Below, piece by piece: positions 307 through 23,009 of a stretch of DNA of 64,000 nt; position 1 is the first letter of the stretch, and each line of letters begins with the position of its first letter. Both the position numbers and the translations under genes were made by a program. Under the pieces are notes generated by a model that searched no databases, was not told where the DNA came from, and was given only the letters and a program-made list of their open reading frames with translations. The stretch is from NCBI GenBank assembly GCA_012026835.1, contig VEPN01000007.1:1-64000 (forward strand), given 5' to 3'. This DNA is from Candidatus Methanoperedens sp. Lineage in GTDB: Archaea; Halobacteriota; Methanosarcinia; Methanosarcinales; Methanoperedenaceae.

Positions 307-605
307 GTTCCGTCTCTCCTTTCGGAGTTGGTTCACATCGGGATTGTTAGAATCGGTTTTTGAACCCGACACACTGAGTGTTTCCACTCTGTTTAATGCC
401 AGATCACAGTTGCACCGAACTTGTGAAGCATTCGGTGGTGTGTATGTATCTCTCGATTGTAACGTCTGCATCTTTTTAATGCTCCCTAATCAACCAGTTG
501 CCCTTGTCCCTCACGGAACAAGCCACCGGACAAGTCCGATGGTGATTGACCGATTCCATATTTTCAATACCTCTCTGGACTTTAGCTATGACCAAATCCA
601 GGCTT
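307..605 (-). ncRNA. HEARO / omega-RNA candidate upstream of IscB
   Basis: IscB genes are preceded by a structured guide RNA (HEARO, also called omega-RNA). On the minus strand this stretch folds into a series of helices: CTGGA/TCCAG (575-579 with 597-601), a closing stem TCAATC/GGTTGA (544-549 with 490-495) enclosing CGGAC/GTCCG and TTGTTCC-GTGA-GGGACAA (504-521), then GAGTG-GAAA-CACTC and CTCC-GAAA-GGAG just before the IscB start. Several loops are GNRA-type, and the string GGGAGCATTAA falls near the 3' half. The 5' boundary and the guide, expected at the 5' end near 602-625, are not defined. Helices are seen in the sequence; the family name is from context. Confidence 0.6.
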
Positions 606-1461: not shown

Positions 1462-2220
1462 CTACTTTGAACCATCATTAACTTTTTCCTCCATTTTGTT
1501 ATATTCCTCGATTATTGCTATGTATTCCTTAACAAGGTATTCACTCATTTCAAGAGTTCTGGCAATCTCCTGCGGGTTCATACTCCCGTACAGGGTTTTA
1601 ACCTTCTTAAAAGCCATGATATACCTATCACATGCCTCCTCTGTATGGCCGGTTATTCTTGAAATATCAGGAGTAGGTACGTTCTTCAGATAATGACCAA
1701 TAATGATCCTCTTATGAGTAATCGCCCTACCGATATCATGTATTGTGCCTCGATAAGGCAACACTGCCTGGTTCTCTATCTGATACTCTCTGATATCTCT
1801 ACCTATAGTTCCAATACTAACACCGAGCAATTCTGCCACATCAGCCTGGGATAGAACACCACTCTGGGCATATGCTTCTCTGAGAATTCTTGCAACTTTG
1901 AACTTTCTGAGTTCCTTATGGGAAAAGCCATTAGCCCTCATATTCCTGTCCTCATCATGCACGACAGACAGAATTACGGGTGTGATTCTTGTTTTCTCAA
2001 GAGTTTTACCATAACTTTGTTTCTCATCCTTGCATACTGCAAACCAGACTGTTTGCCCGGGTTCAAGGTTCCAGGCATCACGATTATATTCCCTGAATAG
2101 TTTGAGAACATCTTCGGTGAACATTTCCTGAACCTTATCTCCTCCAAGGAATTTGTACTCAGAATTGAGGAGGGATTTGATTGCTGAGGCAACACCTTTC
2201 CCCCCATTATTGGGTATCAC
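1462..2220 (-). CDS. DUF1670-family protein
   Basis: The 252-residue protein resembles the C-terminal third of its neighbour (2217-4439). Both contain a block about ELRKFKVARILREAYAQSGV, a helix-turn-helix-like stretch (LSQADVAELLGVSIGTIGRDI), and a conserved PYRGTIHDIGRAITHK segment. These are features of DUF1670 proteins, known from archaeal genomes next to transposase genes; their biochemical role is unknown. The start overlaps the stop of the upstream fusion gene by 4 bases (ATGA), so the two are probably translated together. Both lie inside the terminal repeats of the same transposon, so I infer a regulatory or accessory role in transposition. Confidence 0.75.
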   Translation of the reverse strand: MIPNNGGKGVASAIKSLLNSEYKFLGGDKVQEMFTEDVLKLFREYNRDAWNLEPGQTVWFAVCKDEKQSYGKTLEKTRITPVILSVVHDEDRNMRANGFSHKELRKFKVARILREAYAQSGVLSQADVAELLGVSIGTIGRDIREYQIENQAVLPYRGTIHDIGRAITHKRIIIGHYLKNVPTPDISRITGHTEEACDRYIMAFKKVKTLYGSMNPQEIARTLEMSEYLVKEYIAIIEEYNKMEEKVNDGSK

Positions 2221-4439
2221 AGGCTCAATCCCCCTTTTTTAGTTTCTTTGGCTTCTACTTCAATTTTCGTAGGTGAGAGGATTTGTTCAAGCCTCTCATA
2301 TCCGATATCCCTGTATTTTTGATAGAGCTCAAAGTATTCTCCTACTACTTTTTCGGTGTTATTGGTAAGTTCACGTATTTGATCTGAAGTAAAACCCTTG
2401 CTTTGCAGCATGATTACTTTGGAGAAACCAACGAGATATCGTTTTATTGCATGTCCAGTATGCCTTGTTCTACGCTCGATCTCTGTGTATTCATAGCCCT
2501 TCAGGTATAGCTCTACGATCCTGGTCTTATGCGATATAGTGGGACCAATATCTTGAATAGAACCTCGTGTGGGGATATCGATTCCCTGCTCTCTGAGTTC
2601 TTTCATATCCCGTTGTATAGTACGTCGGCTGCTAGTGAGCAATAGTGCAAGATCTTCCTGAACAAGAAGACCTCCCTGATCATAAGCCTCGGATGCAAAC
2701 CGTATCAACTTATGCTGCCGTAATCCTTGAATCCCTTTTTTCTCCAAAACCTCTGCATCGTCTGGATGGGAAACTGTAAGTCTTACAGGTATTGTTTTTA
2801 TCTTGTCTAACTGCTTTCCTGGCGACTCATCTTTACTGACAGCATGATAGATTACCTGGCTGTCGTCTCGTAGATTGCCATAATTCTGATCGATGAATTC
2901 ATGCATTAACTGTACAAGTGATCTACAGGTTGCTCTTGGAAAACCGTATTCGACCTCTAATTCATGGAAAAGTTGCTGTTGGGCAGTCTTTATCCATACA
3001 CTCTTTAATTCGCTAACTCCATCCTGATTTACCGACATGGCTATGCCCCAAATATAGATTTTTGTACTTCTACTTATAGGGGTCGCCTTGTGGCGCAAAC
3101 GTAAATTCATCAAGCTGTTTTTTATGAATTTTGTCGAAGTATTCTTCAATTCCTTGATCTCATATCGTATCAAAGAAATAAACAATTGAGCTAAAAACCC
3201 TATGATCAATGCTCCATAAATGCTATCATCCGACCATACACGTACCGGTTTTATTTCAATCTCATTTTTCAAAGAATTAAAAATCTTTTCGATTGAATCC
3301 TTCTTTCTATAAGTTTGCAAAGCCTGGGCAAGTGTCAAATCCTCACTTGATTTAATGCAGAAAAATCCTTCACGACCATTAATAATTATTTTTTCAAGAA
3401 GTTTTAATGCTTCCTCTTCACTGAGTTCTATGAGTTTGGTTTGATAAGAATAAGACACATCAATGAGCACATTATTAATACGGAACTTCTTTGGAAGCTG
3501 TTTCTTATTATCGATCGATTTTTGTATCTCTTTAGCTTCTTTTAATTTCTGCAATGCTTTTCTTGCCCTGGATTTTAGCTGATCTTTCTGCAGACTCTCT
3601 GAAAAATAAAAATAATCTATGCTGCTTGGTTTAACAAATTTTATCCCGTAAACTCCTTTTTCAGCATCAATAATTTCAGCTTTGGATTTATCGAATTTTT
3701 TGATCCGTTTATCATCACTTTTATTCAGCTTCTTAGATGTCAGGTACTTCATTTTGTCCGCAAGAATGAGGTCAATATTTGTTTTACTATTGGCTCCTTT
3801 ATCAAAAGTTATTAATGAGCCAGGCTTGAGCTTGTCCTTGATTTGTTGATATGTAGCAGCAAAGTGTTTCATATCATTGAGATTTCCTTTGTTTACAGTA
3901 ATTCCAATAGGAATATTGATTGGACCTGAAAGTTCACTTATGCCGACAGTTAGTTGTTTCTTGTCTGGCCTATGATCTCTGCTATACCCATATTTTCCCA
4001 GTTTACTTTTATCGCCATAAAGAACCAAACTTGTCCAATCCATATTGACATCAGTATGCTCAAAATTATACTTCTCGAATAATCGATCCTGGATGTCTGA
4101 AATTATTTCTTCTCTATTCTTGCCTATGGTTTCGAGTGTTCTGAAGAGTGTCCTTTCTTCGAATTTCTCAAGATTAAAAGTTTCAAGGACTTCAACTCGA
4201 TTAATCCATTCACTGGCTTTACTTATGCTGAGATTTTCAGTTAGCTTATAACTCAAAATAGACTGGATGAGAGAGTTTATGTCTCTACCTTTCTTTTTGT
4301 ATTTCTCAAAAACACCTGGAAGTTGTAATTTTTCATATATGTTTCCTACAGCAAGAATTGTTCCAATCGGAAAGCATATATTCTCATTAGGGATTATATC
4401 ATATGTCCTCAGTTTTTTTTGGTATTTCATCAATAACAA
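2217..4439 (-). CDS. IS1634-like DDE transposase fused to DUF1670 domain
   Basis: The 740-residue protein has two parts. Residues 1 to about 460 are a DDE transposase of the IS4/IS1634 type: a first Asp in MDWTSLVLYGD, a second in LITFDKGANS, and the Glu-bearing YRKKDSIEKIFNSLKNE block. From about residue 465 (after the Met in GIAMSVNQDG) the sequence is a DUF1670 domain with an HTH-like stretch (LVQEDLALLLTSSRRTIQRDM) and PTRGSIQDIGPTISHK. In related loci I would expect DUF1670 to be a separate gene, and the internal Met may still be used. The gene is complete, so the element may be active. Overlap with the downstream DUF1670 gene suggests one transcript. Confidence 0.8.
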   Translation of the reverse strand: MLLMKYQKKLRTYDIIPNENICFPIGTILAVGNIYEKLQLPGVFEKYKKKGRDINSLIQSILSYKLTENLSISKASEWINRVEVLETFNLEKFEERTLFRTLETIGKNREEIISDIQDRLFEKYNFEHTDVNMDWTSLVLYGDKSKLGKYGYSRDHRPDKKQLTVGISELSGPINIPIGITVNKGNLNDMKHFAATYQQIKDKLKPGSLITFDKGANSKTNIDLILADKMKYLTSKKLNKSDDKRIKKFDKSKAEIIDAEKGVYGIKFVKPSSIDYFYFSESLQKDQLKSRARKALQKLKEAKEIQKSIDNKKQLPKKFRINNVLIDVSYSYQTKLIELSEEEALKLLEKIIINGREGFFCIKSSEDLTLAQALQTYRKKDSIEKIFNSLKNEIEIKPVRVWSDDSIYGALIIGFLAQLFISLIRYEIKELKNTSTKFIKNSLMNLRLRHKATPISRSTKIYIWGIAMSVNQDGVSELKSVWIKTAQQQLFHELEVEYGFPRATCRSLVQLMHEFIDQNYGNLRDDSQVIYHAVSKDESPGKQLDKIKTIPVRLTVSHPDDAEVLEKKGIQGLRQHKLIRFASEAYDQGGLLVQEDLALLLTSSRRTIQRDMKELREQGIDIPTRGSIQDIGPTISHKTRIVELYLKGYEYTEIERRTRHTGHAIKRYLVGFSKVIMLQSKGFTSDQIRELTNNTEKVVGEYFELYQKYRDIGYERLEQILSPTKIEVEAKETKKGGLSL

Positions 4440-6042: not shown

Positions 6043-6165
6043 ATGTCATCTAAACGCACGTCAATTGCAATAGATTCAGAAACAAAAGAAGTCCTCGACT
6101 GGTCAATGCCACAGGAAAAGACCAGAAATTTTTCACAACATACTCGCAAATTACTCGAGATATTC
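6043..6165 (+). pseudogene. 5' part of IS-split B-box/rhodanese gene
   Basis: The 41 codons start at ATG 6043 behind GGAGG. The peptide (SSKRTSIAIDSETKEVLDW...) resembles the N-terminal strand and helix of a ribbon-helix-helix protein. The gene is cut at 6165 by the insertion sequence at 6166-7710. Joining codon 41 to base 7718 keeps the frame open through to 8362, giving a protein of about 255 residues. The match to ribbon-helix-helix proteins is weak; the reading-frame join is direct sequence evidence. Confidence 0.75.
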
Positions 6166-7710
6166 CTAAATTCCCGAAAAATTAGGCACTATAATTAGCT
6201 CTTTTTGCCATAAGCATTTCTTCTCCTATCGAAATAATTTTTTAGTCACCGCAATATATTTATATTTATAGTGCCTAATATAGGCATTATGAGCTTTATC
6301 AGATATAAAAAATTTGGAAATAAAGAATATGCCTATGAAATAACTGCCTACTGGGATCGAGAACAAAAAAAATCTCGTCAGCATCCTAAATATCTTGGCG
6401 TTGTAATTGATAAAGAAGCCAAAATCTTCAAAAAGAAGGAGAAAAAGATCGAGGAAGAAAAATTAATTCTGGATTTTGGAGATACGTTCATTCTCAATGA
6501 ATTCATGAAAAAAACAATGATAAGAGACACTTTATTCAAAGTTTTTGGAGGTAGGACTGAGTATCTGTTGGCTCTTATTTATTATCGATTATGCTATCCT
6601 TCCGCAATGATGTATGCCAAAACTTGGTATCAGGGGAGCTATGCCAGATTGATATCCAAGGATCTCGATTTGTCTTCCCAGAGAATAAGTGAATTCCTGA
6701 AAGCAATAGGTGAAGAACACCTCCAAAGGGAATATTTCAAGAATCACATATCTTTGCTCGCTATAACAAATGAAGGCATCATAATTGATGCAACTTCTAT
6801 GCCAAACCAAATTCATTTTCCATTCAACACATGGGGATATAATGATGGCGGAATAGACAAACAGATCAGATTGCTATTTGTGATTGATAAAAAGAGTTCT
6901 CTGCCACTTTATTTCAGATATCTCCCAGGAAACATCGTTGACGTATCGTCTCTCACTACGACAATAGAAGAACTCAAACAATATGAAATCAAGAGTAGTT
7001 TTGCTCTTGTCGATGCTGGATTTTACTCTGAAGATAATATTAAAGAATTAAATTTAGGAGTTATAGATTTCCTAACACGATTGCCGTCAAAAACCAAATT
7101 ATACAAAAACCTTATCAAGGAGGCTATGCCTGATATTGAAACATTCAAAAATGCTGTGAAATATGGGGACAGAATTCTGTTTGTCAAACAAAAAAAAGTA
7201 GATCTTTTTGGCAAGGAGGGGTATGCCCATATTGTTCTGGATCCTGAAAGAAAAGGTAGGGAAACAAAAAAGCTGCTAATAGATGCAATTGAGGATAAAG
7301 AATCTGACGAAGAAAAAGTCGAATTTGAACTCTTGAAAAGTGGGGCAATGATTCTTGTTTCTTCATTTGAAATTGAAAAAAAAGAGGTTGTTCCTCTTTA
7401 TTATATGAGACAAACAATTGAAAAATTGATCGGGTTTGCCAAAGATGATCTGGATCTAATTCCTTTGAGGGTTCATAGAGAAGAAACGTTAAGAGGCTAC
7501 TTGCTCCTGATATTTATTACGTTGACAGTATTCGCTCTAATGAAAAAAGAGATCGGCAGCGATTATACTGTGGAGGAAACTTTGCTGACTATGAGAAATT
7601 TGAAATGCAAAGTTTATGACACAGAGTTGATTGTTCAGGAACTGGCTAAACAACAGAAAGAAGTTGTTGAAAAACTAAATATCATAGTGCCTAAAAAGAT
7701 GGGAATTTAG
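6166..7710 (+). mobile_element. IS4/IS1634-like insertion sequence, 1545 bp
   Basis: Terminal inverted repeats are CTAAATTCCC-(6 nt)-TTAGGCACTAT at 6166-6192 and its partner at 7684-7710. They are flanked by the 7-bp direct repeat GATATTC (6159-6165 and 7711-7717). The transposase stop codon forms the last three bases of the right repeat. A further ATAGTGCCTAA copy lies at 6268-6278 just inside the left end, over the transposase promoter, and could allow autoregulation. The element looks intact and its duplication is still perfect, so insertion was recent. Confidence 0.88.
6289..7710 (+). CDS. IS4/IS1634-family DDE transposase
   Basis: The 473-residue transposase has DDE residues in IIIDATSMPNQ, FALVDAGFYSED and the YYMRQTIEKLIGFAKDD block (the Y-x2-R-x3-E pattern of the IS4 superfamily). 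The N-terminus (SFIRYKKFGNKEYAYEIT) matches the small beta-rich head of IS1634-type enzymes. A GTG at 6271 is also in frame but lies within a terminal-repeat copy, so ATG 6289 is preferred. It is a different lineage from the DUF1670-fused transposase at 2217-4439. Complete and probably active. Confidence 0.9.
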   Translation: MSFIRYKKFGNKEYAYEITAYWDREQKKSRQHPKYLGVVIDKEAKIFKKKEKKIEEEKLILDFGDTFILNEFMKKTMIRDTLFKVFGGRTEYLLALIYYRLCYPSAMMYAKTWYQGSYARLISKDLDLSSQRISEFLKAIGEEHLQREYFKNHISLLAITNEGIIIDATSMPNQIHFPFNTWGYNDGGIDKQIRLLFVIDKKSSLPLYFRYLPGNIVDVSSLTTTIEELKQYEIKSSFALVDAGFYSEDNIKELNLGVIDFLTRLPSKTKLYKNLIKEAMPDIETFKNAVKYGDRILFVKQKKVDLFGKEGYAHIVLDPERKGRETKKLLIDAIEDKESDEEKVEFELLKSGAMILVSSFEIEKKEVVPLYYMRQTIEKLIGFAKDDLDLIPLRVHREETLRGYLLLIFITLTVFALMKKEIGSDYTVEETLLTMRNLKCKVYDTELIVQELAKQQKEVVEKLNIIVPKKMGI

Positions 7711-7717
7711 GATATTC

Positions 7718-8362
7718 CATGATAAAGAATGGCCGCAGCTCCTCAAACGGGTCAGAACAGATAAGCTAATATGTGAAAAACATGGAAAACCATATACTCT
7801 GATCTGTAAGGATTGTGAAGTAGCATTATGTCCGAAGTGCAGGATCGAGCCACATCTGGACCATCAACTGCAGTTTTTCTGCAGGATCCATCAGGTGGGC
7901 TACCAGACAACATGTATGTTATGTGAACGTGATAGGTGGGAAGGAATTGTCGATATTCCAATGATAAATGCAGATGACCTAAAAGAAGAAATGGATAATT
8001 GCATCTGCATAGATGTCCGGGGAGATTCAGAATGGGAAGAAGGCCATCTTCCAGGTTCCCATCATATTAAATGGGTTGATATCCGGCTCAAGAACTCTGA
8101 TGGATATAAGCGTCTCATGGATCTTGTCAAAGAACACAGAAATGAGCGGTGGATATTCATCAGTCAGGGGAACATTAAGGATATAAAACCAGGCAGATCT
8201 GCCAGGGGATGGCTCGCTGCGGCGGATCTCAAAACAATGCACCGTCTTGAGAATGTTGCATGTCTGGAGGGGGGTTGGGTATATTTCCATTCAAGGAACC
8301 CGGACATTGTCGAAGATCACAGGTCGAAGGGTTCATGTCAGATATGTGAATTTCACAGGTGA
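7718..8362 (+). pseudogene. 3' part of IS-split gene: B-box zinc finger and rhodanese-like domain
   Basis: In frame with 6043-6165 after removing the insertion sequence. The first 60 residues carry a B-box-like zinc pattern (C-x2-H, C-x2-C, C-x2-C, H-x3-H in CEKHGKPYTLICKDC / CPKCRIEPHLDH). Next comes a rhodanese-like domain with CICIDVRGDSEWEEGHLPGS; its active-site region is not an obvious CxxxxR loop, so sulfur transfer is uncertain. The last Cys pair is CQICEF. An internal GTG at 7895 could still start a rhodanese-only protein. The gene leads straight into the RNase gene at 8367 (4 bases apart), so it was probably the first gene of the operon that follows. Confidence 0.75.
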
Positions 8363-8366
8363 TATA

Positions 8367-9089
8367 ATGAAGCCGAAAGTGTACATTGACGGAGCGAATG
8401 TTGCCTATAAGGATAATAAAACGATATGTGCATTCCGCATCGATACTGCGTTAAATGAGATGCAAAAACTCGGTTTTGAGCCACATGCGCTTCTGCCGAG
8501 TTATATGGAAAAGAAGGTAATTGATCTGCATGTTCTTAATAAACTGGTTTCGGAGGAGCGGCTTTCCTTTATTTCAAACAATGATGATGAAGCCCTTATT
8601 ACCATTGCTTATGAGAAGGATGCATTCATACTGACTAATGACAGGTTCAAAGACCATAAAGACAAAGACTGGTGGTCACGAAAAATTGAGGACTGGCTAA
8701 GATCCAGACTGATTACTTATGAGTTCATAGAAGGAGATCTCTCAATCCCGATGAGTATGCGAAATCGCCTATCAAGATATTTGAAAGAATCTACGTCACA
8801 GCGGATGTCAGTATACGAATTTAAAAAGAGTGCCACAAATGGCGGAGCTTCATCCGAAACCCCCATTGAAGCTTTTCCTGAACCTGTCCAGAAATTGTTA
8901 AAATTGATTCGGGAAACACCTGATGTAACGACTATTTCAGCACTGGGTTCACAGTTAAAGAAAACGACCGGATATGGACCTAATGACCTATTCGGTAACA
9001 GTAGGCATACTGCAAGGTTCCTTAAATCCAGGGGATTTTCTGTAAGACAAGCTGATAACAATCTCTATGTGGAGGGGGTTGCTGAATGA
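8367..9089 (+). CDS. NYN/Zc3h12a-type PIN-fold RNase with C-terminal LOTUS-like domain
   Basis: The 240-residue protein starts with YIDGANVAY, the first acidic motif of NYN (Zc3h12a-like) ribonucleases. It continues with Asp73/74 and FILTNDRFKDH (Asp92, Asp96), making a full metal-binding acidic set. From about residue 165 the helical segment EPVQKLLKLIRETPDV...FLKSRGFSVRQ resembles a LOTUS/OST-HTH RNA-binding domain, a known partner of NYN domains. It overlaps the next gene by ATGA (9086-9089). Expected role: RNA cleavage or processing in the cytoplasm; the RNA target is unknown. First intact gene of the 8367-15171 operon. Confidence 0.75.
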   Translation: MKPKVYIDGANVAYKDNKTICAFRIDTALNEMQKLGFEPHALLPSYMEKKVIDLHVLNKLVSEERLSFISNNDDEALITIAYEKDAFILTNDRFKDHKDKDWWSRKIEDWLRSRLITYEFIEGDLSIPMSMRNRLSRYLKESTSQRMSVYEFKKSATNGGASSETPIEAFPEPVQKLLKLIRETPDVTTISALGSQLKKTTGYGPNDLFGNSRHTARFLKSRGFSVRQADNNLYVEGVAE

Positions 9090-10084
9090 AGATACTTGTT
9101 ACAGGAAGCAGCGGACTTATTGGAAGTGCGGTCTGCCCACTTCTTGAAGAGTACGGATATATTGTACGCCGATTTGATATACAGCCGCCATCATCAGAGA
9201 TAGGCACCACATATTTCAGGTCTAAAGAACTAACTGACGGCAAGGACAGAAGACGTGCGATAAAAGGGATAGATGGAGTAATCCATCTGGCGGCGGTATC
9301 CCGTGTGCTCGATGCAGAACTTGACCCATCAAAATGCATTGATGTCAATGTCAGGGGAACCATGGAACTCCTTCATGACATTGCTAAATTGGACAATCCT
9401 CCCTGGGTCATTTATGGTAGCAGCCGTGAAGTATATGGAACCTCTTCAAAAATACCAGTATCAGAGGACCAGCCATTAAAACCAGTGAATATCTATGGCA
9501 TGTCTAAGGTCGTGGGAGAATATCTGGTAAGCAATTATTCAAGATTGACAAAACGCCCGTCAGTAATTTTCCGTTTTTCCAATGTATATGGTTCCGTATA
9601 TGACCATAGTACAAGAGTGATCCCGGCGTTTGTCCGTGCCACTGTCACAGGAAGTGCTATCCGGATTGAAGGAGAAGACAATATTTTTGATTTCACTCAT
9701 GTGGACGATACTGCTAATGCAATTCGAGCTGCGGTGAACCTTATTGAAGATGGAAGATTGGCTGGCACTGAGGTGATGAATGTCGCATCTGGTCGGGGAA
9801 CGACCCTGATGCAGCTTGCAAATCTTGTTAGAACGATATCTGGCGTAGATATTCCTATCATTAAGAAGAAACTGCGTGATTTTGATGTAAACCATTTCAT
9901 TGGTGACCCGTACAGGCTTGAGAGTCTGCTTGGCGTTCGCTGCAAAATACCGCTGTATATTGGCATTCAGCGTTTGTTGAATGATTTTAGAACTGACATT
10001 AACAGAACTGGATATATCACAGAAATTCCTGGAAAAATGTCCCGAAATATGATCAATGCAGTGAGACAGGAGGTATCTCTGTGA
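9086..10084 (+). CDS. NAD-dependent epimerase/dehydratase (extended SDR, GalE-like)
   Basis: The 332-residue protein has the SDR nucleotide-binding start (MKILVTGSSGLIGSAV, GxxGxxG), Asp in DIQPP for NAD ribose, a GVIHLAAVS strand, and the catalytic YGMSK (Tyr-x3-Lys) with GSSREVYG before it. Extended SDRs of this kind epimerise, dehydrate or reduce NDP-sugars. It is preceded by GGAGG and overlaps genes on both sides by 4 bases. Next to a glycosyltransferase and a nucleotidyltransferase it most likely tailors an activated sugar; substrate unknown. Confidence 0.85.
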   Translation: MKILVTGSSGLIGSAVCPLLEEYGYIVRRFDIQPPSSEIGTTYFRSKELTDGKDRRRAIKGIDGVIHLAAVSRVLDAELDPSKCIDVNVRGTMELLHDIAKLDNPPWVIYGSSREVYGTSSKIPVSEDQPLKPVNIYGMSKVVGEYLVSNYSRLTKRPSVIFRFSNVYGSVYDHSTRVIPAFVRATVTGSAIRIEGEDNIFDFTHVDDTANAIRAAVNLIEDGRLAGTEVMNVASGRGTTLMQLANLVRTISGVDIPIIKKKLRDFDVNHFIGDPYRLESLLGVRCKIPLYIGIQRLLNDFRTDINRTGYITEIPGKMSRNMINAVRQEVSL

Positions 10085-11469
10085 AGATACTTGAAGTAAT
10101 TCATGGATATCCGCCGTTATATAATGCAGGATCTGAGGTGTATACCCAGACAATTGCCCGAGGGTTTGTCAAGGCGGGTCATGAGGTTGCAGTATTTACG
10201 CGTGAAGAAGATCCGTATCGTCCAGATTTCGATATCAGGTGTGATCATGATCTCCAGGATCCCTCCATAAGGGTATATTATGCCAATCATGCCAGGTCTC
10301 GTGACAGATATCGGCATGTTGGAATGGACGATGCATTTATCTCAGTATTGTCGAATGAAAATCCTGATATCGTCCATATAGGGCACCTTAATCATATTTC
10401 CACTGGCATCCCTGAGATTGCTGCCAGATCAGGTGCACTTGTGGTATATACGATCCATGATTTCTGGCTTGCCTGCCCGCGCGGGCAGTTCATTCAGATG
10501 GGACTGGGGGAACCGGAGATATGGAAATTATGTCCTGGTCAGAATGACCTAAGGTGTGCTGTCCATTGCATGTCAAGGATGTGGGGAGGCGTTCCAGATA
10601 AGAAAGAAGATGATATTGCATATTGGACAAAATGGGTGGAAAACCGTATGTTGGAGATCCAGCATCAGATAAAACATATTGATCTATTCATCGCACCATC
10701 AAAACATATACGTGAACGGATAATCACTGAACTCGGTATTGATCCGCACAAAGTGGTATTGGAACCATATGGTTTTGATATTTCCCGTCTGACTGGGAGA
10801 CAGCGCGTGCAGGAAAAAGGTGTTGTTTTTGGATATATTGGACGCATAAATGCATCAAAGGGAATAGATCTACTCCTGAAGGCTTTTGGCAAGACCAAAA
10901 GTGATGCACAGCTTCGTATATATGGAAGAGACTCTTTTCCTGATAGCTCGGCATTAAGGCGGATCGAACGTGGTCTTGAACCAGATCGAAGGAGCAGGAT
11001 CAAATGGCTGCCTGAGTACAGGAACGAAGATATAATTACATCTGTTTTCAACCATATCGATGCCGTGGTTGTTCCATCTATCTGGGATGAAAACTCTCCC
11101 CTGGTCATCCAGGAAGCGCAGCAGGTGGGGATCCCGGTGATCACGGCAGACCATGGAGGCATGGCTGAACTTGTTGAGAATGGCGTTAACGGTTTTCTCT
11201 TCAAGCACCGGGATGCCAATGACCTTGCAAAGCAGCTGCAGGATGCTATTGATGATCCAGATCATCTCATTTGCCTTGGAAAGAGAGGATATCTTAATTC
11301 CAAAGATGGCAATATCCCTGATATCGAGGGACATGTTGCCCGCATGATGAACTTATTTGAGAAACATCTCTCACAAAAAGTGCTGCGTAATAGAAGTGAT
11401 GTGATTTGTTTTGGAGGTGAATCTGATGAATACAAGTCCTCTATCAGGTCCTTGGAGAATTACATTTGA
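10081..11469 (+). CDS. Glycosyltransferase family 4
   Basis: The 462-residue protein begins with GTG 10081 behind AGGAGG and overlaps the epimerase by GTGA. It has a GT-B architecture: an N-terminal acceptor domain (EVIHGYPPLYNAGSEVYTQ) with HDFWLACPRG, then a donor domain with VVFGYIGRINASKGIDLLLKAF and VVPSIWDENSPLVIQEAQ...PVITADHGGMAELV, the acidic retaining GT4 signature. It has no signal peptide or membrane segment, so it is cytosolic or peripheral. It probably transfers the sugar made by the neighbouring epimerase/kinase/nucleotidyltransferase set. The 3' end overlaps the radical SAM gene by 44 bases. Confidence 0.85.
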   Translation: MKILEVIHGYPPLYNAGSEVYTQTIARGFVKAGHEVAVFTREEDPYRPDFDIRCDHDLQDPSIRVYYANHARSRDRYRHVGMDDAFISVLSNENPDIVHIGHLNHISTGIPEIAARSGALVVYTIHDFWLACPRGQFIQMGLGEPEIWKLCPGQNDLRCAVHCMSRMWGGVPDKKEDDIAYWTKWVENRMLEIQHQIKHIDLFIAPSKHIRERIITELGIDPHKVVLEPYGFDISRLTGRQRVQEKGVVFGYIGRINASKGIDLLLKAFGKTKSDAQLRIYGRDSFPDSSALRRIERGLEPDRRSRIKWLPEYRNEDIITSVFNHIDAVVVPSIWDENSPLVIQEAQQVGIPVITADHGGMAELVENGVNGFLFKHRDANDLAKQLQDAIDDPDHLICLGKRGYLNSKDGNIPDIEGHVARMMNLFEKHLSQKVLRNRSDVICFGGESDEYKSSIRSLENYI

Positions 11470-12475
11470 TACGAATCCGGATGATTGTAACCTTAATTGC
11501 ATAATGTGTGAAGAGCATAGCGAATATTGTGCGGACAATAATAACCGCAAAAATCGGCGACAACATCGACTAATGGATATAGAGTTGATACGTCAAACAG
11601 TTGAACAGATGGCCCCCAGGGGATTGCGTGAGATGATTCCTTCAACTATGGGTGAACCTCTGCTCTACAGGTATTTTGAGGATATTGTCAGGATATCCTC
11701 TAAGCATGGCATAAAGATCAATCTCACGACAAATGGTACATGGCCCCGTCTGGGGCCACAAAAATGGGCTGAAATGCTTTGCCCGGTAACAAGTGACATT
11801 AAAATATCGTGGAATGGTGCAAGTCCATCAACACAGGAAGCCATCATGCCTGGTTCTTTATTTTCGCAGCGATTGGATGATATTTATGCTTTCATAAAGG
11901 TACGAGATGATATTTCCAGATCAGGTGGGAACCATTGCCGATTAACATTTCAATGTACATTTATGGAAACAAATCTTGATGAACTCCCGGATATTATCCG
12001 TTTGGCAGCGGATCTTGGAGTTGAACGTGTGAAGGGTCATCACCTGTGGGTTCACTCACCTCAAATGCAATATCTTGACATGAGACGTTCTGCTGGATCA
12101 AGGTCGCGATGGAATATGGTCGTCGAGCGATGCAAAGATGTGGCTGAGCATTTACAATTGCCTGATGGGAAGAATGTAATCCTTGCGAATTTTATCCCCC
12201 TTGCCATAGAAGGAAAGAATGTGCCTGATAACTGGGTATGTCCTTTCCTCGGTCAGGAGGCATGGGTGAACTATGAAGGACGGTTCGATCCATGTTGTGC
12301 ACCGGATGCTAAACGCCGTGAACTTGGGATGTTTGGATATGTAACGGATGGCGGTATGGAAGCTATATGGAATGGAACAAAATACAGGCGTTTCGTTCAA
12401 GATCATATGAAATATCCATTGTGCAGGGGATGTAATATGAGAAGACCACCAGAGGAGGTGCGATGTCATGACTGA
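11426..12475 (+). CDS. Radical SAM protein with SPASM-like C-terminus
   Basis: The 349-residue protein carries CNLNCIMC (CxxxCxxC, the SAM cluster), a TMGEPLL strand equivalent to the GGEP motif, and LTTNGT. A C-terminal cysteine set (CPFLG, DPCCAP, CRGCNM) suits a second SPASM-type iron-sulfur cluster. ATG 11426 is chosen because it follows GGAGGTGA; an upstream TTG at 11411 lies inside that ribosome site. It overlaps both neighbours. SPASM enzymes often modify peptides, but some act on sugars or alcohols; in this sugar-rich operon either is possible. Confidence 0.83.
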   Translation: MNTSPLSGPWRITFDTNPDDCNLNCIMCEEHSEYCADNNNRKNRRQHRLMDIELIRQTVEQMAPRGLREMIPSTMGEPLLYRYFEDIVRISSKHGIKINLTTNGTWPRLGPQKWAEMLCPVTSDIKISWNGASPSTQEAIMPGSLFSQRLDDIYAFIKVRDDISRSGGNHCRLTFQCTFMETNLDELPDIIRLAADLGVERVKGHHLWVHSPQMQYLDMRRSAGSRSRWNMVVERCKDVAEHLQLPDGKNVILANFIPLAIEGKNVPDNWVCPFLGQEAWVNYEGRFDPCCAPDAKRRELGMFGYVTDGGMEAIWNGTKYRRFVQDHMKYPLCRGCNMRRPPEEVRCHD

Positions 12476-13748
12476 AAGATGGCAGATCTCGCGGGTATCT
12501 CCCTGTCGCAAATACCATGTTTTACCTGATGGGCCAATGTACAGTTTCCGGTACGAAGAGGTACTTCCATTTCATTCTCCAGGGCTTGCGCCAGCGAAAA
12601 AGGGTGGGGAATGGTTCCATATTCGACCAGATGGAATGCCTGTATACCATCAGCGTTACACGCGTACTTTTGGGTATTATGAGGAGAGGGCAGCTGTTCA
12701 GAAGGAGAATGAATGGTACCATATACTGATTGACGGTGATTCAGCATATCAGAGACGGTTTGGCTGGTGTGGCAATTTTCAGAACGGAATATGTACCGTT
12801 CGCGACTTGAATGGCTATTACCATCATATTCTGCCTAACGGGAAGGATGCATATCCTGAAAGGTATGTTTATGCAGGGGATTTCCGGGAAGGTTCTGCGG
12901 TTGTGCGCCTTAATAATGGGATGTGCATGCACATAAATGAAAAAGGCATACCCTTACAGGAGCGGACATTCTCTGATCTTGATGTGTTCCACAAAGGGTT
13001 CGCCAGAGCATGCGATGAGAATGGATGGTTCCATATCGATAGGGAGGGGAAACAGATATATCAGAAACGATTCAAAGAGATCGAACCGTTCTATAATAGA
13101 CAGGCGTTGTGCAAGGATTTCACAGGGCGTATTGTCATTATCGATGAAACCGGCTCTGAAATGCTGGAGATTAATAACGGTCTGCCGTTAATTAAGGAGA
13201 AAGGGCCGAAAATATTGGTAATTGGAACGCTCGGTGCCGGGAAGACCACATTCTCGAAATATATCTCCAACAGGATGGGACTGCCATTCACTGGTATAGA
13301 TGATTGCAGGCGTCGCTTTGGTGATGGCACGTTTGTTGGTGAATACAGGGCATGGACTGAGTTCATTAAGACCTGTGGTATGCCTGGTGGAACCGTTCTT
13401 GAATTCTCTGGAGGTGGACCTCATGTATTTGCCGTTCGCGGTGCGCTTTTAAATTCTGAAATGCCTATATACGTAGTCTGGCTGGACCCGCCTTTGAATA
13501 TATGTATCCGGCGTGCTTCTGCAAGAGAAAATGATGTTCCTGCACCGTATGAATGGGGAGATGTCGATCATTCTACCGCACAGATTTACAAAGAGGTCGA
13601 ACGGTCATGGGAAAGGGAATGGACTGTAAGTCCGAATATCCACTTTCTCCATTTAAAAATGATGAACGAAAAGTCTCTGGATGAACAATTCAAAATATTC
13701 ATGGATTTCATGAGTGGTGATGCAGATGCACCCATCGATAATTATTGA
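12468..13748 (+). CDS. WG-repeat domain fused to P-loop nucleotide/sugar kinase-like domain
   Basis: The 426-residue protein: residues 1 to about 235 hold at least five WG-type repeats of about 40 residues (WFHIRPDGMPVYHQRY, WYHILIDGDSAYQRRF, YYHHILPNGKDAYPERY, WFHIDREGKQIYQKRF). From about 248 comes a P-loop kinase-like domain with Walker A GTLGAGKTTFS (253-263), a GIDDCRRRFGDG segment and a lid-like RASAREND stretch. The kinase half resembles small NMP or gluconate kinases. I do not know a characterised protein with this fusion. Ribosome site GAGGAGG precedes ATG 12468. Confidence 0.72.
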   Translation: MTERWQISRVSPCRKYHVLPDGPMYSFRYEEVLPFHSPGLAPAKKGGEWFHIRPDGMPVYHQRYTRTFGYYEERAAVQKENEWYHILIDGDSAYQRRFGWCGNFQNGICTVRDLNGYYHHILPNGKDAYPERYVYAGDFREGSAVVRLNNGMCMHINEKGIPLQERTFSDLDVFHKGFARACDENGWFHIDREGKQIYQKRFKEIEPFYNRQALCKDFTGRIVIIDETGSEMLEINNGLPLIKEKGPKILVIGTLGAGKTTFSKYISNRMGLPFTGIDDCRRRFGDGTFVGEYRAWTEFIKTCGMPGGTVLEFSGGGPHVFAVRGALLNSEMPIYVVWLDPPLNICIRRASARENDVPAPYEWGDVDHSTAQIYKEVERSWEREWTVSPNIHFLHLKMMNEKSLDEQFKIFMDFMSGDADAPIDNY

Positions 13749-15171
13749 TCAGATAGTATCTTTTGCCAGGACGCATCCTGAAGTAAATGGTCTGGCTTTA
13801 CTTGGATCCCATGCAAGAGGAGATGCCGGACCCTGGGCAGATGTTGATCTTTTTTTGTTTGCTGCACAAAGAGATGATATCGAGTATGTACTTGAGTCGT
13901 GTGTTTCATTCATGTCATCCAGAATAAAGCATGTTATCAGACCTGAACCCAATAAATGGGTGATTTTGACCAATGATAATTGTCTGAAAATCGATCTGAC
14001 TGCCGTATTTGATGTTTCTGATATTGAGGTTATATACCGTGGCTCGAGGATCCCTGACCCGAAGAATGCTGTTCTTGTGGACAAAGAAGGGATACTTATG
14101 GCGGCATTTGAAACATGGTCGAAGGATAAAGAAAAATCCGATCTGTCAACACTTGTCAGCAATGAAGTGGAAAAGTTCATTGACTCATTTGAAGCATCGT
14201 CAAGATATGCCCAGCAGGGTGATGCATTCCGTTTCTATTTCAACTATAATTTGTCATTAACCCGGTATGCAAGACTTGTTCAACTGGCACAGGATAATGA
14301 TGCGTTCCTTTATACACCTCGGAGATTGCTGGAAAGTATGAGTCAAAACCAGCGGAGAGCCACCGAGCGGTTATGCGCTCCTCTGGTTTTATCTGAAGCC
14401 AGACCAGTTCTAAAAAGATTAAAAGCAGAATTTTCAAGCATATACTCGAAATTATATTCCAGGCATCCAATGCTGGCGAGATCAACTGAAGAAATCGTTG
14501 TTTTACTTCAGGATATCTTAAGCAGGGACATGGTATGGAACCTGCGCGATATTTCGTGGATTGCTCCCGATGTTCTTTATGATAGCAAGCTTTTCCGGTC
14601 TTCAACATTATCAAGGTTCGAGCATGAACGGGAATATGATACTTTACTCGTAAGACTGGGTATCAGGCGAATAATAGATCTTCGCTACGATCATGAACGG
14701 GCTCGGTACCCCTATTCAGTTCATACATCAAGACAAATTGAAATTGTGCAGCTTAGCATGGGAAAGGAACCGGAGAGCCAGAAAGTTTTTGGGTTTCGTA
14801 CTGGTAACACCCATTTGGATATGCTTGATAACTCGGTCGTATTCAAGAGGTTTTTCTCACTACTTGCAGAAGGGATACCTACATTGGTACACTGTCATAG
14901 CGGGAAAGATAGAACTGGGGTTCTAATCGCACTACTTTATCTTGCCATGGGAATTCCTGTGAATATTGCTCATAGGGATTTCCTTGTATCAGGTATGGAT
15001 CTTACCGAAAAAGATGCGGATGAGTTTTTTGGAGGTATAGAGGAATTGGGTGGTAATGAGGAGATTCTGAACCGTCTCGGAGTAGACAAGCAGGATGTTC
15101 GCTCAATACGTGGATGGTTATTGAAATATGGGTATTCAATTTGGCTTCGATCTGTTCCGGCATTGCTGTGA
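13720..15171 (+). CDS. Nucleotidyltransferase fused to tyrosine-phosphatase-like domain
   Basis: About 483 residues. The N-terminus has the minimal nucleotidyltransferase motif GSHARGDAGPWADVDL (Gly-Ser...Asp-x-Asp), as in DNA polymerase beta-type and aminoglycoside nucleotidyltransferases. A helical middle follows. The last 170 residues form a protein-tyrosine-phosphatase-like domain: RIIDLRYDHER and the P-loop HCHSGKDRTG with nucleophilic Cys and Arg. Possible starts are GTG 13714, ATG 13720 and ATG 13726; all overlap the kinase gene. The enzyme could both attach and remove phosphate-linked groups, fitting a sugar-phosphate or nucleotide pathway. Last gene of the operon. Confidence 0.75.
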   Translation: MQMHPSIIIDQIVSFARTHPEVNGLALLGSHARGDAGPWADVDLFLFAAQRDDIEYVLESCVSFMSSRIKHVIRPEPNKWVILTNDNCLKIDLTAVFDVSDIEVIYRGSRIPDPKNAVLVDKEGILMAAFETWSKDKEKSDLSTLVSNEVEKFIDSFEASSRYAQQGDAFRFYFNYNLSLTRYARLVQLAQDNDAFLYTPRRLLESMSQNQRRATERLCAPLVLSEARPVLKRLKAEFSSIYSKLYSRHPMLARSTEEIVVLLQDILSRDMVWNLRDISWIAPDVLYDSKLFRSSTLSRFEHEREYDTLLVRLGIRRIIDLRYDHERARYPYSVHTSRQIEIVQLSMGKEPESQKVFGFRTGNTHLDMLDNSVVFKRFFSLLAEGIPTLVHCHSGKDRTGVLIALLYLAMGIPVNIAHRDFLVSGMDLTEKDADEFFGGIEELGGNEEILNRLGVDKQDVRSIRGWLLKYGYSIWLRSVPALL

Positions 15172-19708: not shown

Positions 19709-20902
19709 ATGAAATTCTTAGGCAGCTCAAAACTCATTAATGAAGAAATGAGTCGACTAATTAAGAAATATAAAACTGGTTCATGGGCTGTAGCTTGGGC
19801 ATCAATAAATTTTGATTGTTATAAGATTTTCTCTGCACACAAAATGAAGTTTGAAAAAATAATTATCGGAACTCATTTTTATCAAACGCATCCCAATTTC
19901 ATAAAAGACGTTATAGGCGAACCGAATATACGATTTGACATGAACCCAGGTGGGGTTTTTCACCCCAAGTTATATTTATTCGAAAATGACCCTAAAGAAT
20001 GGGAATGTATCATTGGAAGTCCCAATTTCACGCAATATGCTTTTGAATATAATTCTGAAACTGCTATGCTGATTTCGAATAAAGACATTGAAAGTGATAA
20101 TGCATATAAAGAAATAAAGAAAGTGATCGGTGATTATTGGAAAAAATCTAAAAAAATCTCAAAAGATGATCTCACCAAATATCAAAAAATGTGGGAAAGA
20201 AAGCAAAAGCCATTGAAAAAATTATCTGGTCGTTACGATGATTTAGATAAATCGCATAAATCACCCCTTGATATTGAAATAATTACAATGACATGGGAGG
20301 AGTATATTTCTAAAATCAGTAAAGATAAATATTATCAAGAACGAATTAAATTGATATCGTCTGCAAGAGACTTATTTAGAAAGCATGGGCATTTCAAAGA
20401 TATTGGTGATGATGGTCGTGATAAACTTGCTGGATTGGTGGGAACTGGGATATCAGATGATGGATTAGATTGGTGGTTATTCGGAACTATGACACGTGCT
20501 TGGCAATTTAATCATGCAATAAAGGATAACAATATTCATATATCTCAAGCTTTGGACTTCATTCCATTTACTGGTGAAATAACAAAAACTGATTATGATC
20601 TTTACTATGAAGAATTCAAAAAGGTTTTTCCCAACGGTGGTTATAACACACCGACAGTAACCAGATTATTGGCAATGAAAAGACCAGATTATTTCTTATG
20701 TTTAAATAAAAAGAATTGGGATAAATTCTCTGACGAATTTGGCATTGCCCGTGATATTCGACCAGATAACTACTGGGATGCTATTGTTGAAAGAATAATT
20801 GATTGCGAGTGGTGGAATTCGGACAAACCAACAAAAAAAGAAGAAGAAATCGTATGGGCTGGAAGGGCAGCTTTTTTGGATGGTCATTTATACGAAGAAT
20901 AA
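19709..20902 (+). CDS. Phospholipase D-family (HKD) nuclease-like protein
   Basis: The 397-residue protein has an N-terminal PLD-like domain with one HxK motif (FHPKLYLF, His85, Lys87) followed by IIGSPNFT (Gly103-Ser-x-Asn106). This is the single-HKD layout of nucleases such as those in restriction and DISARM-type systems, which dimerise to build the active site. The rest (residues 150-397) is a charged, mostly helical domain that I do not recognise. Not in an obvious operon. It sits in the variable island, so a defence role is plausible but inferred. TATA-like sequence lies just before the ATG. Confidence 0.7.
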   Translation: MKFLGSSKLINEEMSRLIKKYKTGSWAVAWASINFDCYKIFSAHKMKFEKIIIGTHFYQTHPNFIKDVIGEPNIRFDMNPGGVFHPKLYLFENDPKEWECIIGSPNFTQYAFEYNSETAMLISNKDIESDNAYKEIKKVIGDYWKKSKKISKDDLTKYQKMWERKQKPLKKLSGRYDDLDKSHKSPLDIEIITMTWEEYISKISKDKYYQERIKLISSARDLFRKHGHFKDIGDDGRDKLAGLVGTGISDDGLDWWLFGTMTRAWQFNHAIKDNNIHISQALDFIPFTGEITKTDYDLYYEEFKKVFPNGGYNTPTVTRLLAMKRPDYFLCLNKKNWDKFSDEFGIARDIRPDNYWDAIVERIIDCEWWNSDKPTKKEEEIVWAGRAAFLDGHLYEE

Positions 20903-21590: not shown

Positions 21591-23009
21591 GTGACCTGTT
21601 TGATTCCCGTCTTAAAGGAAAACGTAAGAATTAAAGAAGAACCTCAGGGCGCTGTTTTTATAAACACGGTGAGTGAAAAGTATACCCTTGCATCTTCTTT
21701 TGAAGCATTTATTCTTTCTCTCTTTGATGGAACTAGGAGCATAGAAGAGGTAGCCAGTCTCCTTAAAAATTTAAAGAATAGCCCAGAAGAAAGAAAAATT
21801 CAAAATGATATTCTCATACTTGTCCATGAGAAAAGAGAGATTATAGAACTAATCAAAAGCCCACTCAAAAAAAGTAGGATTCAGATTGATCCATATAGAT
21901 TTTTACTTAAACCAGATATTTTTAAGAAGCCAATGCGTTGCAATGCCCCACTGGCAGTTGACTTATACATTACAAGAAAATGTAACCTAAACTGTATATA
22001 TTGCTTTGCAAATGCAAAATACACAGACAGCCAGACTAGAAATTATCGATGCAATGAAATGCGTCTTGATAGAATAAATTATCTTATTGATCAAATAGCT
22101 GAATTAGAGACTAAAAAAATAATTCTCACGGGAGGGGAACCAACCTTAAGACCAGATTTACCTAAAATTATACAACGCCTTTCGAATTATGGTATTGATG
22201 TTTTTTTAGCAACAAATGTTTATTCAATGAACGATAAATTGGCAAAAGAATTAAGAGACTCAGGGCTTACAAAAATTCAAGCCAAACTTGATGCAGCAAA
22301 TCCAAAAATACAAGATAAGTTATCAAGGGTTAAGGGAAGCTATGGGAAGCTCATTAGAGGTATTAAAACCTTAAAGAAATATTCTTTCAAGATATCTGTA
22401 GTATCTATAGCTACATCTTGGAATATTAAAGAGATTCCTGAAGTGGTAAAAATTTGTGCCGATTTGGGAATAGATGAATTTAATCCTCGTATTTATACAC
22501 CAGGAATATGGGCACTGCATGGTAGAGGAGGGTCCTATTTGAATCCATCATCCAATTCTATCCTCTGGCTTTATCAGAGAATTGAAGAGCTTCAAGAAGA
22601 GTATAAAGGTATCATGAATGTCTCATCTCTCGAAACTTCAACGTTTTGTAAGAAGAAAGAAAATGAAGTACCTGCATGCCCAGGCTTCATTTCCGCCTGC
22701 ACAATTCTTGAGAATGGACTAGTCGTGCCTTGTGAACTTGTAGCTGATTTTTCTAATGATTTTATAATAGGAGATGCAAATAAGCAACCACTGATTGATA
22801 TCTGGAATTCAGAGAAAGCCGAAAGATGGATGCTTCGCAAGTACCCTAAAATTGGAGAACCATGTTCATCTTGTAATGAATTTGAGAGATGTAAAGGAGG
22901 ATGCCCTGCAAAATCCTTCATAGCGTATGGAAAACGATCGGCTGATCCATTTTGTGTTAAGGCCCCTAATCCCACCGTGATTTCTTTTCCTGAAGTTTCA
23001 ACCGAGTGA
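21591..23009 (+). CDS. Radical SAM/SPASM peptide-maturase with PqqD-like N-terminus
   Basis: The 472-residue protein: residues 1-100 form a PqqD/RRE-like precursor-binding domain (FDGTRSIEEVASLLKN is its typical tail). Cys131, Cys135 and Cys138 in CNLNCIYC bind the SAM cluster, and TGGEPTLRPDL follows. The C-terminus has CPGF, VPCEL and CSSCNEFERCKGGCP, a full SPASM domain with auxiliary clusters. This architecture matches enzymes that crosslink or epimerise ribosomal peptides. GTG 21591 gives the full RRE; a TTG at 21600 would too. Confidence 0.85.
   Translation: MTCLIPVLKENVRIKEEPQGAVFINTVSEKYTLASSFEAFILSLFDGTRSIEEVASLLKNLKNSPEERKIQNDILILVHEKREIIELIKSPLKKSRIQIDPYRFLLKPDIFKKPMRCNAPLAVDLYITRKCNLNCIYCFANAKYTDSQTRNYRCNEMRLDRINYLIDQIAELETKKIILTGGEPTLRPDLPKIIQRLSNYGIDVFLATNVYSMNDKLAKELRDSGLTKIQAKLDAANPKIQDKLSRVKGSYGKLIRGIKTLKKYSFKISVVSIATSWNIKEIPEVVKICADLGIDEFNPRIYTPGIWALHGRGGSYLNPSSNSILWLYQRIEELQEEYKGIMNVSSLETSTFCKKKENEVPACPGFISACTILENGLVVPCELVADFSNDFIIGDANKQPLIDIWNSEKAERWMLRKYPKIGEPCSSCNEFERCKGGCPAKSFIAYGKRSADPFCVKAPNPTVISFPEVSTE

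Follow-up and report, generated by a model that had tools for sequence, protein, structure and literature searches.

What is made by an archaeal operon that joins sugar enzymes to a radical SAM enzyme, a WG-repeat kinase and a nucleotidyltransferase-phosphatase? The question is raised by a stretch of 64,000 nucleotides from Candidatus Methanoperedens sp. (contig VEPN01000007.1, positions 1 to 64,000; hereafter the window), which carries in one overlapping series an NYN-domain RNase (g1), a sugar epimerase (g2), a GT4 glycosyltransferase (g3), a radical SAM enzyme (g4), a WG-kinase (g5) and a nucleotidyltransferase-phosphatase (g6), preceded by the remains of a further gene, g0 (Table 1). We propose that this operon is a kinase/nucleotidyltransferase variant of a modular pathway that is widespread and whose product is probably a small molecule containing sugar, and we put the probability of this reading at about 0.5. 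A preliminary description of the same DNA had considered a sugar activation and transfer pathway, which fits the gene content. The open reading frames and the sequence bear out the overlaps given there, namely 4 bases between g1 and g2 (ATGA), 4 between g2 and g3 (GTGA), 44 between g3 and g4 and 8 between g4 and g5; g5 and g6 overlap by 29 bases with the ATG start of g6 at 13720 and by 35 with the GTG at 13714.

Scanning of 84,980 GTDB species genomes with an alignment of the radical SAM protein yielded 167 relatives. The 80 best were retained, and contig ends truncate some of these loci. The prevalence of the other genes therefore holds for that half of the relatives, and since the loci were chosen by the radical SAM gene alone, the counts of GT4 and WG are independent of the choice. 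WG was found in 80/80 loci and GT4 in 78/80, the remaining two being cut by contig ends. Of the 78 loci holding all three, 77 have GT4, radical SAM and WG collinear and on the same strand; in four of these 77 (L030, L066, L089 and L091) radical SAM and WG are set apart by another gene or by a gap (0.8-4.6 kb). The trio spans Myxococcota, Chloroflexota, Chlamydiota, Planctomycetota, Cyanobacteriota, Pseudomonadota and Asgard archaea, and also occurs on one IMG/VR contig (L094). Culturable genera are among the relatives, namely Halomonas (L073), Myxococcus (L077) and Sorangium (L053). The set is thus a unit that clearly recurs, with three or more of its genes together in genomes other than that of the window.

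The genes around the trio change in a modular way. Among the 80 loci, a methyltransferase (Methyltransf_2) was found in 59, a histidine phosphatase (His_Phos_1) in 53, the epimerase in 49, a carbamoyltransferase (Carbam_trans) in 9 and NYN in 3, and the kinase and the dual-specificity phosphatase (DSP) each in the same 4 (L014, L015, L030 and L050). The HISP2 model also matches the C-terminal half of the bacterial histidine-phosphatase proteins, and its lone matches in L017, L074 and L088 were not counted; the phosphatase total is 57 loci without them and 60 with them. Methyltransferase and kinase never occurred together (0/80), nor did histidine phosphatase and DSP (0/80), as expected of alternative modules. 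In the usual layout elsewhere, WG is fused to an O-methyltransferase and followed by the histidine phosphatase, whereas in the window it is fused to the kinase and followed by the nucleotidyltransferase-phosphatase. GT4 and radical SAM are fused in 41 of the 84 loci that were clustered; epimerase-GT4, WG-histidine phosphatase and WG-aldolase proteins were also found, and L030 has a kinase-DSP fusion with WG as a separate gene. The fusions of GT4 to radical SAM, and of WG to methyltransferase, kinase or histidine phosphatase, suggest that a single intermediate passes through these parts. Among the accessory neighbours are AsnB, PhyH, hexapeptide transferases and additional radical SAM proteins.

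All seven genes (g0 to g6) stand in the same order in three loci of two genomes that belong to the window's taxonomic order, L009 and L010 of the anaerobic methanotrophic (ANME)-2 cluster archaeon B4-08 (G018; contigs identical to JAMJFV010000080.1 and JAMJFV010000061.1) and L011 of genome G113. ANME-2 is placed in Methanosarcinales by NCBI; the two B4-08 copies sit in one metagenome-assembled genome and may come from two strains. The proteins share 45-76% identity with those of the window (NYN 33-54%), and L010 and L011 have a carbamoyltransferase as the eighth gene, of which tblastn of the window gave chance-level matches only (E over 1). Third codon positions hold 49-58% of the differences between the window and L009 in all seven genes. 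Because the order recurs and this excess is found in every gene, the six-gene set is more than chance; judged by codon position, the six genes are real, under purifying selection and maintained as proteins.

The kinase replaces the O-methyltransferase as the partner fused to WG in the window, L014, L015 and L011. Genomes G116 and G137 carry epimerase, GT4, radical SAM, WG, histidine phosphatase and carbamoyltransferase. The same set in L107 (G376) is accompanied by a divergent RHH/B-box/rhodanese gene (RHH, ribbon-helix-helix) and stand-alone kinase and nucleotidyltransferase genes, so that the histidine phosphatase is combined there with separate kinase and nucleotidyltransferase genes. L108 (G504) has epimerase-GT4 and WG-histidine phosphatase fusions, a carbamoyltransferase, a second radical SAM gene and, again divergent, the RHH/B-box/rhodanese gene. 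As seen in L107 and L108, the kinase, nucleotidyltransferase and rhodanese protein also travel with the pathway as unfused genes. The distribution is scattered. In the order, g6 was found in 4/185 genomes including the window's own, one of them (G051) with a fragment only, and the radical SAM gene in 5/185; the latter was found in 6/392 genomes drawn from the phylum, a draw that includes four of the order's five positives. None of the 30 other genomes of the genus has the operon; what is left of g6 in G051 is a relic of 191 bases. In a quick radical SAM tree of 87 rows, the window groups with B4-08 (support 97), then with G113 (89) and a Thermoplasmata contig (95). This group falls outside the bacterial group (86) and the kinase label needs three changes, the deep placement being unsure because of long branches. 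A recent transfer from bacteria to archaea was rejected on this topology, with the same caution about long branches.

The preliminary description knew of no described system with this combination, which is correct in part only. The tblastn search with the WG protein gave matches in a Wolbachia phage WO record and in Arsenophonus plasmids, and the core corresponds to WD0612-WD0614 (epimerase, GT4-radical SAM and WG protein) of the published Undecim cluster, contiguous genes in the window as well. According to the available part of PMC9203015, Undecim comprises WD0611-WD0621, shows high conservation as well as expression in the phage of Wolbachia, and is represented by homologues in Rickettsia, Cardinium and Phycorickettsia; the functions suggested there are glycosylation and exopolysaccharide, methylation, and antibiotic. 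The portion of PMC4701759 at hand describes expressed Undecim proteins and the WG-methyltransferase fusion, and notes that WD0612-0614 may be syntenic in Desulfovibrio hydrothermalis and WD0613 to WD0615 in a few further bacteria. Neither archaea nor the WG-kinase form is mentioned in these parts of the two papers, and literature searches on WG returned, within the text they gave access to, no paper joining WG repeats to radical SAM.

In Undecim of phage WO, of which copies lie on Rickettsia plasmids, epimerase, GT4, radical SAM and WG stand in the window's order with 38%, 43%, 47% and 41% identity to the window. However, the Undecim WG domain carries an O-methyltransferase (UC4) and that of the window a kinase. 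Of UC1-UC11, only UC2, UC3 and the N-terminal part of UC4 are present in the window operon, which lacks UC1 and UC5-UC11 (PhyH, ABC transporter, threonine aldolases and others), whereas no NYN, rhodanese, nucleotidyltransferase-DSP or carbamoyltransferase gene is annotated in Undecim. The Arsenophonus plasmid CP132902.1 also keeps the window's order from epimerase to WG (41-50% identity), but its WG protein carries a methyltransferase and is followed by PhyH and, on the other strand, a threonine aldolase. Planctomycetota contig JAIOPE010000063.1 (L050) has a WG-kinase followed by a nucleotidyltransferase-DSP, as in the window (39% and 33% identity), but its GT4 and radical SAM are fused, and no epimerase, NYN or carbamoyltransferase was found in the locus. 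The 'aminoglycoside' cluster of Rickettsia buchneri was rejected as a relative, as the gene set given in the accessible part of PMC8770908 is different.

The domain assignments made earlier for the epimerase, GT4, radical SAM, WG and nucleotidyltransferase-phosphatase stood up, as did the NYN domain of g1 (3e-17); the LOTUS domain proposed for g1 is less secure, as its LOTUS/OST-HTH match of 15.5 bits is below the cut-off of 23.8. The nearest solved structure to g2 is UDP-glucose 4-epimerase 4zrm (3e-25), and its Undecim and Arsenophonus-plasmid homologues show 38-41% identity. For g3 the best solved match is 6kih (1e-12), with 43-76% identity in L007-L011. The Pfam scan identified g4 as a radical SAM protein with a SPASM-like domain, in whose family the cysteines of CX3CX2C and CX12GX4C...CX2C are kept in 87/87 rows. 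The SPASM domain has the seven-cysteine motif CX9-15GX4C-CX2CX5CX3C-C (PMC6231123), and the g4 family retains its first four cysteines, with no conserved CX5CX3C...C part in the 87 rows. By its cysteine pattern, the auxiliary domain of g4 is therefore of the twitch type and not SPASM. The available text of PMC9012708 assigns a twitch domain to BtrN and MoaA. Cys171, a cysteine in 85/87 rows, is a candidate hydrogen-atom donor. The best profile match of g4 among solved structures is the epipeptide enzyme YydG, which is weak (6e-5), and BtrN is not among its PDB sequence matches.

The predicted structure of g5 is confident (pLDDT 90.3 overall and about 97 in the WG part). The WG model matches beta-propellers such as BamB and designed propellers, although the WG part has no sequence match among solved structures; outside B4-08 the domain is 39-52% identical to that of the window, and it has invariant His, Trp and Asn residues. 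The C-terminal part scores 25.5 against a Pfam kinase cut-off of 29.4, and its model superposes on shikimate kinase 3trf with Z 12.8 and a root-mean-square deviation of 4.3 over 157 residues, which supports a small-molecule kinase fold despite the low score. The N-terminal part of g6 has the motif GSxARG...DxD and a third Asp at residue 94, residues that are invariant in 4 rows. Its low-confidence model matches the lincosamide nucleotidyltransferase LinB (3.8e-7) and ANT(6)-Ib (6.6e-6), a likeness of fold that alone suggests self-protection by nucleotidylation. The C-terminal part resembles PtpB by model and by profile (PtpB 1ywf, 1e-15).

From gene order, fusions, domain swaps, motifs and the signs of selection, which were observed, we infer every step of the following scheme. 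The epimerase would supply a nucleoside diphosphate sugar, and the retaining GT4 would move the sugar onto a small acceptor that is perhaps phosphorylated. Either this sugar or the acceptor may then be epimerized or dehydrogenated at one carbon by the twitch radical SAM enzyme, as BtrN and HygY do. The WG propeller would hold or dock the intermediate for the tailoring enzyme fused to it, a kinase here and an O-methyltransferase in most bacteria. A phosphate would be stripped by the phosphatase, of the dual-specificity type here and of the histidine type elsewhere, while the nucleotidyltransferase and kinase may mask the product inside the cell or activate an intermediate. The carbamoyltransferase of close relatives would complete the molecule. 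The RHH/B-box/rhodanese protein is a likely regulator and the NYN RNase an accessory gene, perhaps also regulatory.

A further parallel lies in aminoglycoside pathways, with their radical SAM enzymes of the BtrN, NeoN and HygY type; the window has an enzyme with the twitch cysteine pattern, together with a glycosyltransferase, a phosphatase and an antibiotic-type nucleotidyltransferase fold. A GT4 step occurs in aminoglycoside biosynthesis, and HygY is reportedly called a 'twitch radical SAM epimerase' in the title of its study, which also reports that mutation converts this epimerase into a dehydrogenase. Several points weigh against our proposal. No cyclitol synthase (2-deoxy-scyllo-inosose synthase) or aminotransferase was found among the operon proteins or in the conserved set, so the likeness to aminoglycoside pathways rests on enzyme types and not on orthology; one class I/II aminotransferase occurs among 51 neighbours of the relatives. 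No dedicated exporter recurs among the 25 listed of 65 neighbour families, neither phosphatase was detected by the models used in 23/80 loci (some contig-cut), and the structural model of g6 is poor (pLDDT 59.5). The GT4 family also includes cell-surface glycan enzymes, and the twitch or SPASM type does not reveal the function of a radical SAM enzyme (PMC6231123).

A wider version of the proposal is tentative, and we hold it to be possible rather than probable. ANME and Asgard archaea, Chlamydiae, myxobacteria, SAR202 bacteria and the Undecim cluster may all make members of a single ancient class of natural products that is as yet undescribed, with the trio as its core. In that case WG would serve everywhere as the tailoring platform, holding on to the intermediate while the fused enzyme (methyltransferase, kinase or phosphatase) is swapped, and the archaeal form would make a masked, antibiotic-like pseudo-oligosaccharide that is released by the phosphatase and finished by carbamoylation.

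The same enzymes could instead decorate the cell surface, building or modifying an exopolysaccharide, a lipopolysaccharide or an archaeal surface glycan or lipid-glycan. Such a role has been suggested for WD0611-WD0613 and WD0620 of Undecim in the available text of PMC9203015. GT4 and the epimerase resemble exopolysaccharide and lipopolysaccharide enzymes, albeit under the family cut-offs, and 5 of the 84 clustered loci, Wolbachia's included, have a UDP-glucose dehydrogenase-type protein. However, the conserved set has a single glycosyltransferase, no Wzx/Wzy-type or ligase family appears among the listed neighbour families (51 neighbours), and presence in 6/392 genomes of the phylum is scattered. 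The phosphatase, kinase, O-methyltransferase and carbamoyltransferase also suit a small molecule better, and we regard surface decoration as unlikely. More doubtful still is a modification of protein or peptide, similar to that of ribosomally synthesized and post-translationally modified peptides, in which the radical SAM enzyme and glycosyltransferase would act on the WG propeller or on a short peptide. WG accompanies radical SAM in every kept locus, sometimes as a separate gene of about 240-260 residues, and YydG is an epipeptide enzyme. Nevertheless, WG is a large, confidently folded propeller with the 39-52% identity given above, and is itself fused to a kinase, methyltransferase or phosphatase, and the radical SAM enzyme is of the twitch and not the SPASM type. 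Overall, the gene set describes small-molecule tailoring better than polymer assembly or RNA modification.

The preliminary description had put forward glycosylation directed by RNA, or a defence against viruses, in which the NYN RNase would be the effector or bind a guide; we consider this very improbable. NYN precedes the epimerase in five of the 11 archaeal loci examined (the window, L014, L015, L011 and the Heimdallarchaeal L041), but is missing from the other six and from all bacterial loci examined. It is therefore an accessory gene outside the core, and its LOTUS match is weak. McrB/McrC-like restriction genes adjoin the pathway in two unrelated loci only, L011 (16457-20000) and L030 (3716-7764). 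Among the defence-system models of PADLOC 2.0.0, g0-g3 had no match and g4-g6 had weak superfamily matches only, the best being viperin at 34 bits. A viperin-like defence, in which the radical SAM enzyme would make modified nucleotides for the kinase to process, is scarcely credible despite a pVip match of 6e-9 and the kinase in the operon. g4 scores 28.4 bits against the NCBIfam NF038283 cut-off of 180, so viperin identity was rejected, its auxiliary-cluster domain has the invariant cysteines described above, and the constant partner is GT4, with the kinase in only 4/80 loci.

Features of the operon and of the broken gene ahead of it are collected in Table 1. The preliminary description had stated that a zinc/rhodanese gene was once first, and two pieces of g0 indeed flank an insertion element. 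The 5' fragment is 66%, 61% and 51% identical by tblastn to the intact homologues of L009, L010 and L011, and the 3' part 62-68% to those of L009 and L010. An intact RHH/B-box/rhodanese gene leads each of these three loci, that of L011 carrying zf-B_box and rhodanese; 'RHH' is a motif reading by eye with no family match behind it. The element belongs to the IS1634 family by its transposase (178 bits with NCBIfam transpos_IS1634, cut-off 100), the GATATTC(C) sequence of 7-8 bp that is duplicated at the target (6159-6166 and 7711-7718), and its inverted ends of 10 bp with the terminal repeat CTAAATTCCC, read from the sequence. As the third-position share of g0 lies in the same range as that of the intact genes, the break is probably recent.

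Table 1. Features of the operon and its disrupted leader gene (window coordinates).
Feature	Position	Strand	Evidence
g0 5' fragment, RHH-like N-terminus, first 41 codons	6043-6165	+	tblastn
IS1634-type element	6167-7710	+	transposase ORF (open reading frame) 6271-7710
g0 3' part, B-box zinc finger and rhodanese, disrupted gene	7715-8362	+	rhodanese 2.5e-9
g1, NYN-domain RNase, Zc3h12a type	8367-9089	+	PF11977 3e-17
g2, extended short-chain dehydrogenase/reductase, NAD-dependent sugar epimerase/dehydratase	9086-10084	+	PF01370 4e-43
g3, GT4 glycosyltransferase, core	10081-11469	+	PF00534 1e-27
g4, twitch-type (by cysteine pattern) radical SAM enzyme, core	11426-12475	+	PF04055 4e-16
g5, whole	12468-13748	+	WG repeats and P-loop kinase
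g5 N-terminal part, WG-repeat beta-propeller domain, core	12468-13178	+	PF14903 2e-14
g5 C-terminal part, predicted P-loop small-molecule kinase, shikimate/adenylate-kinase fold	13200-13748	+	predicted structure
g6, whole	13714 (GTG) or 13720 (ATG) to 15171	+	nucleotidyltransferase and phosphatase
g6 N-terminal part, Pol-beta-type nucleotidyltransferase and helical domain	13714-14490	+	NTP_transf_2 1e-4
g6 C-terminal part, PtpB-like DSP, HCxxGKDRT	14500-15171	+	Y_phosphatase3 3e-24

The flank of the operon is rich in mobile elements, with a DDE transposase fused to DUF1670 at 2217-4439 (-) and a second DUF1670 copy at 1462-2220 (-). An HNH-endonuclease-associated (HEARO) RNA lies at 327-550 (-) with 112 bits against a cut-off of 83; the window begins at base 1 of the contig, and the partner gene may lie off its end. 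On the other side, a second radical SAM/SPASM protein (21591-23009, +) has a viperin-model similarity of 77 bits and lies near a gene for a PLD-type nuclease-like protein (19709-20902). One open frame of 5,428 residues at 46317-62603 (-) has the haem-binding motif CXXCH 52 times. A multihaem cytochrome of such extreme size is in keeping with ANME-2-type archaea. In the wider family, six bacterial loci (L022, L033, L035, L036, L037 and L067) form a sub-type with a carbamoyltransferase and a second radical SAM gene, and all except L036 have a class II aldolase-like protein, the L022 copy of which gives a weak WG match. The histidine phosphatase is fused to a domain with the motif GG...DLDLW in L023, L047, L062, L063, L066, L073, L077, L084 and L087, and this domain, to which no Pfam family was assigned, is a separate gene in L017, L030 and L074. 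A Pol-beta nucleotidyltransferase in the C-terminal half of the bacterial histidine-phosphatase proteins of 440-450 residues, where the GG...DLDLW motif is visible, found no support from hhalign (0.2% probability) or Pfam. A partnership with nonribosomal peptide or polyketide synthases was set aside; the largest open reading frame beside the core, in Hormoscilla L080, starts with FG-GAP-like repeats by eye.

The operon suggests that the WG propeller is used repeatedly with exchangeable fusion partners. It also makes a sugar-based metabolite a candidate product of methane-cycling archaea, from which, to our knowledge, few secondary metabolites are known. Since Undecim shares its core with free-living bacteria and archaea, a role confined to insect hosts becomes less likely, and the question of its function can be put to organisms open to culture and mutation.

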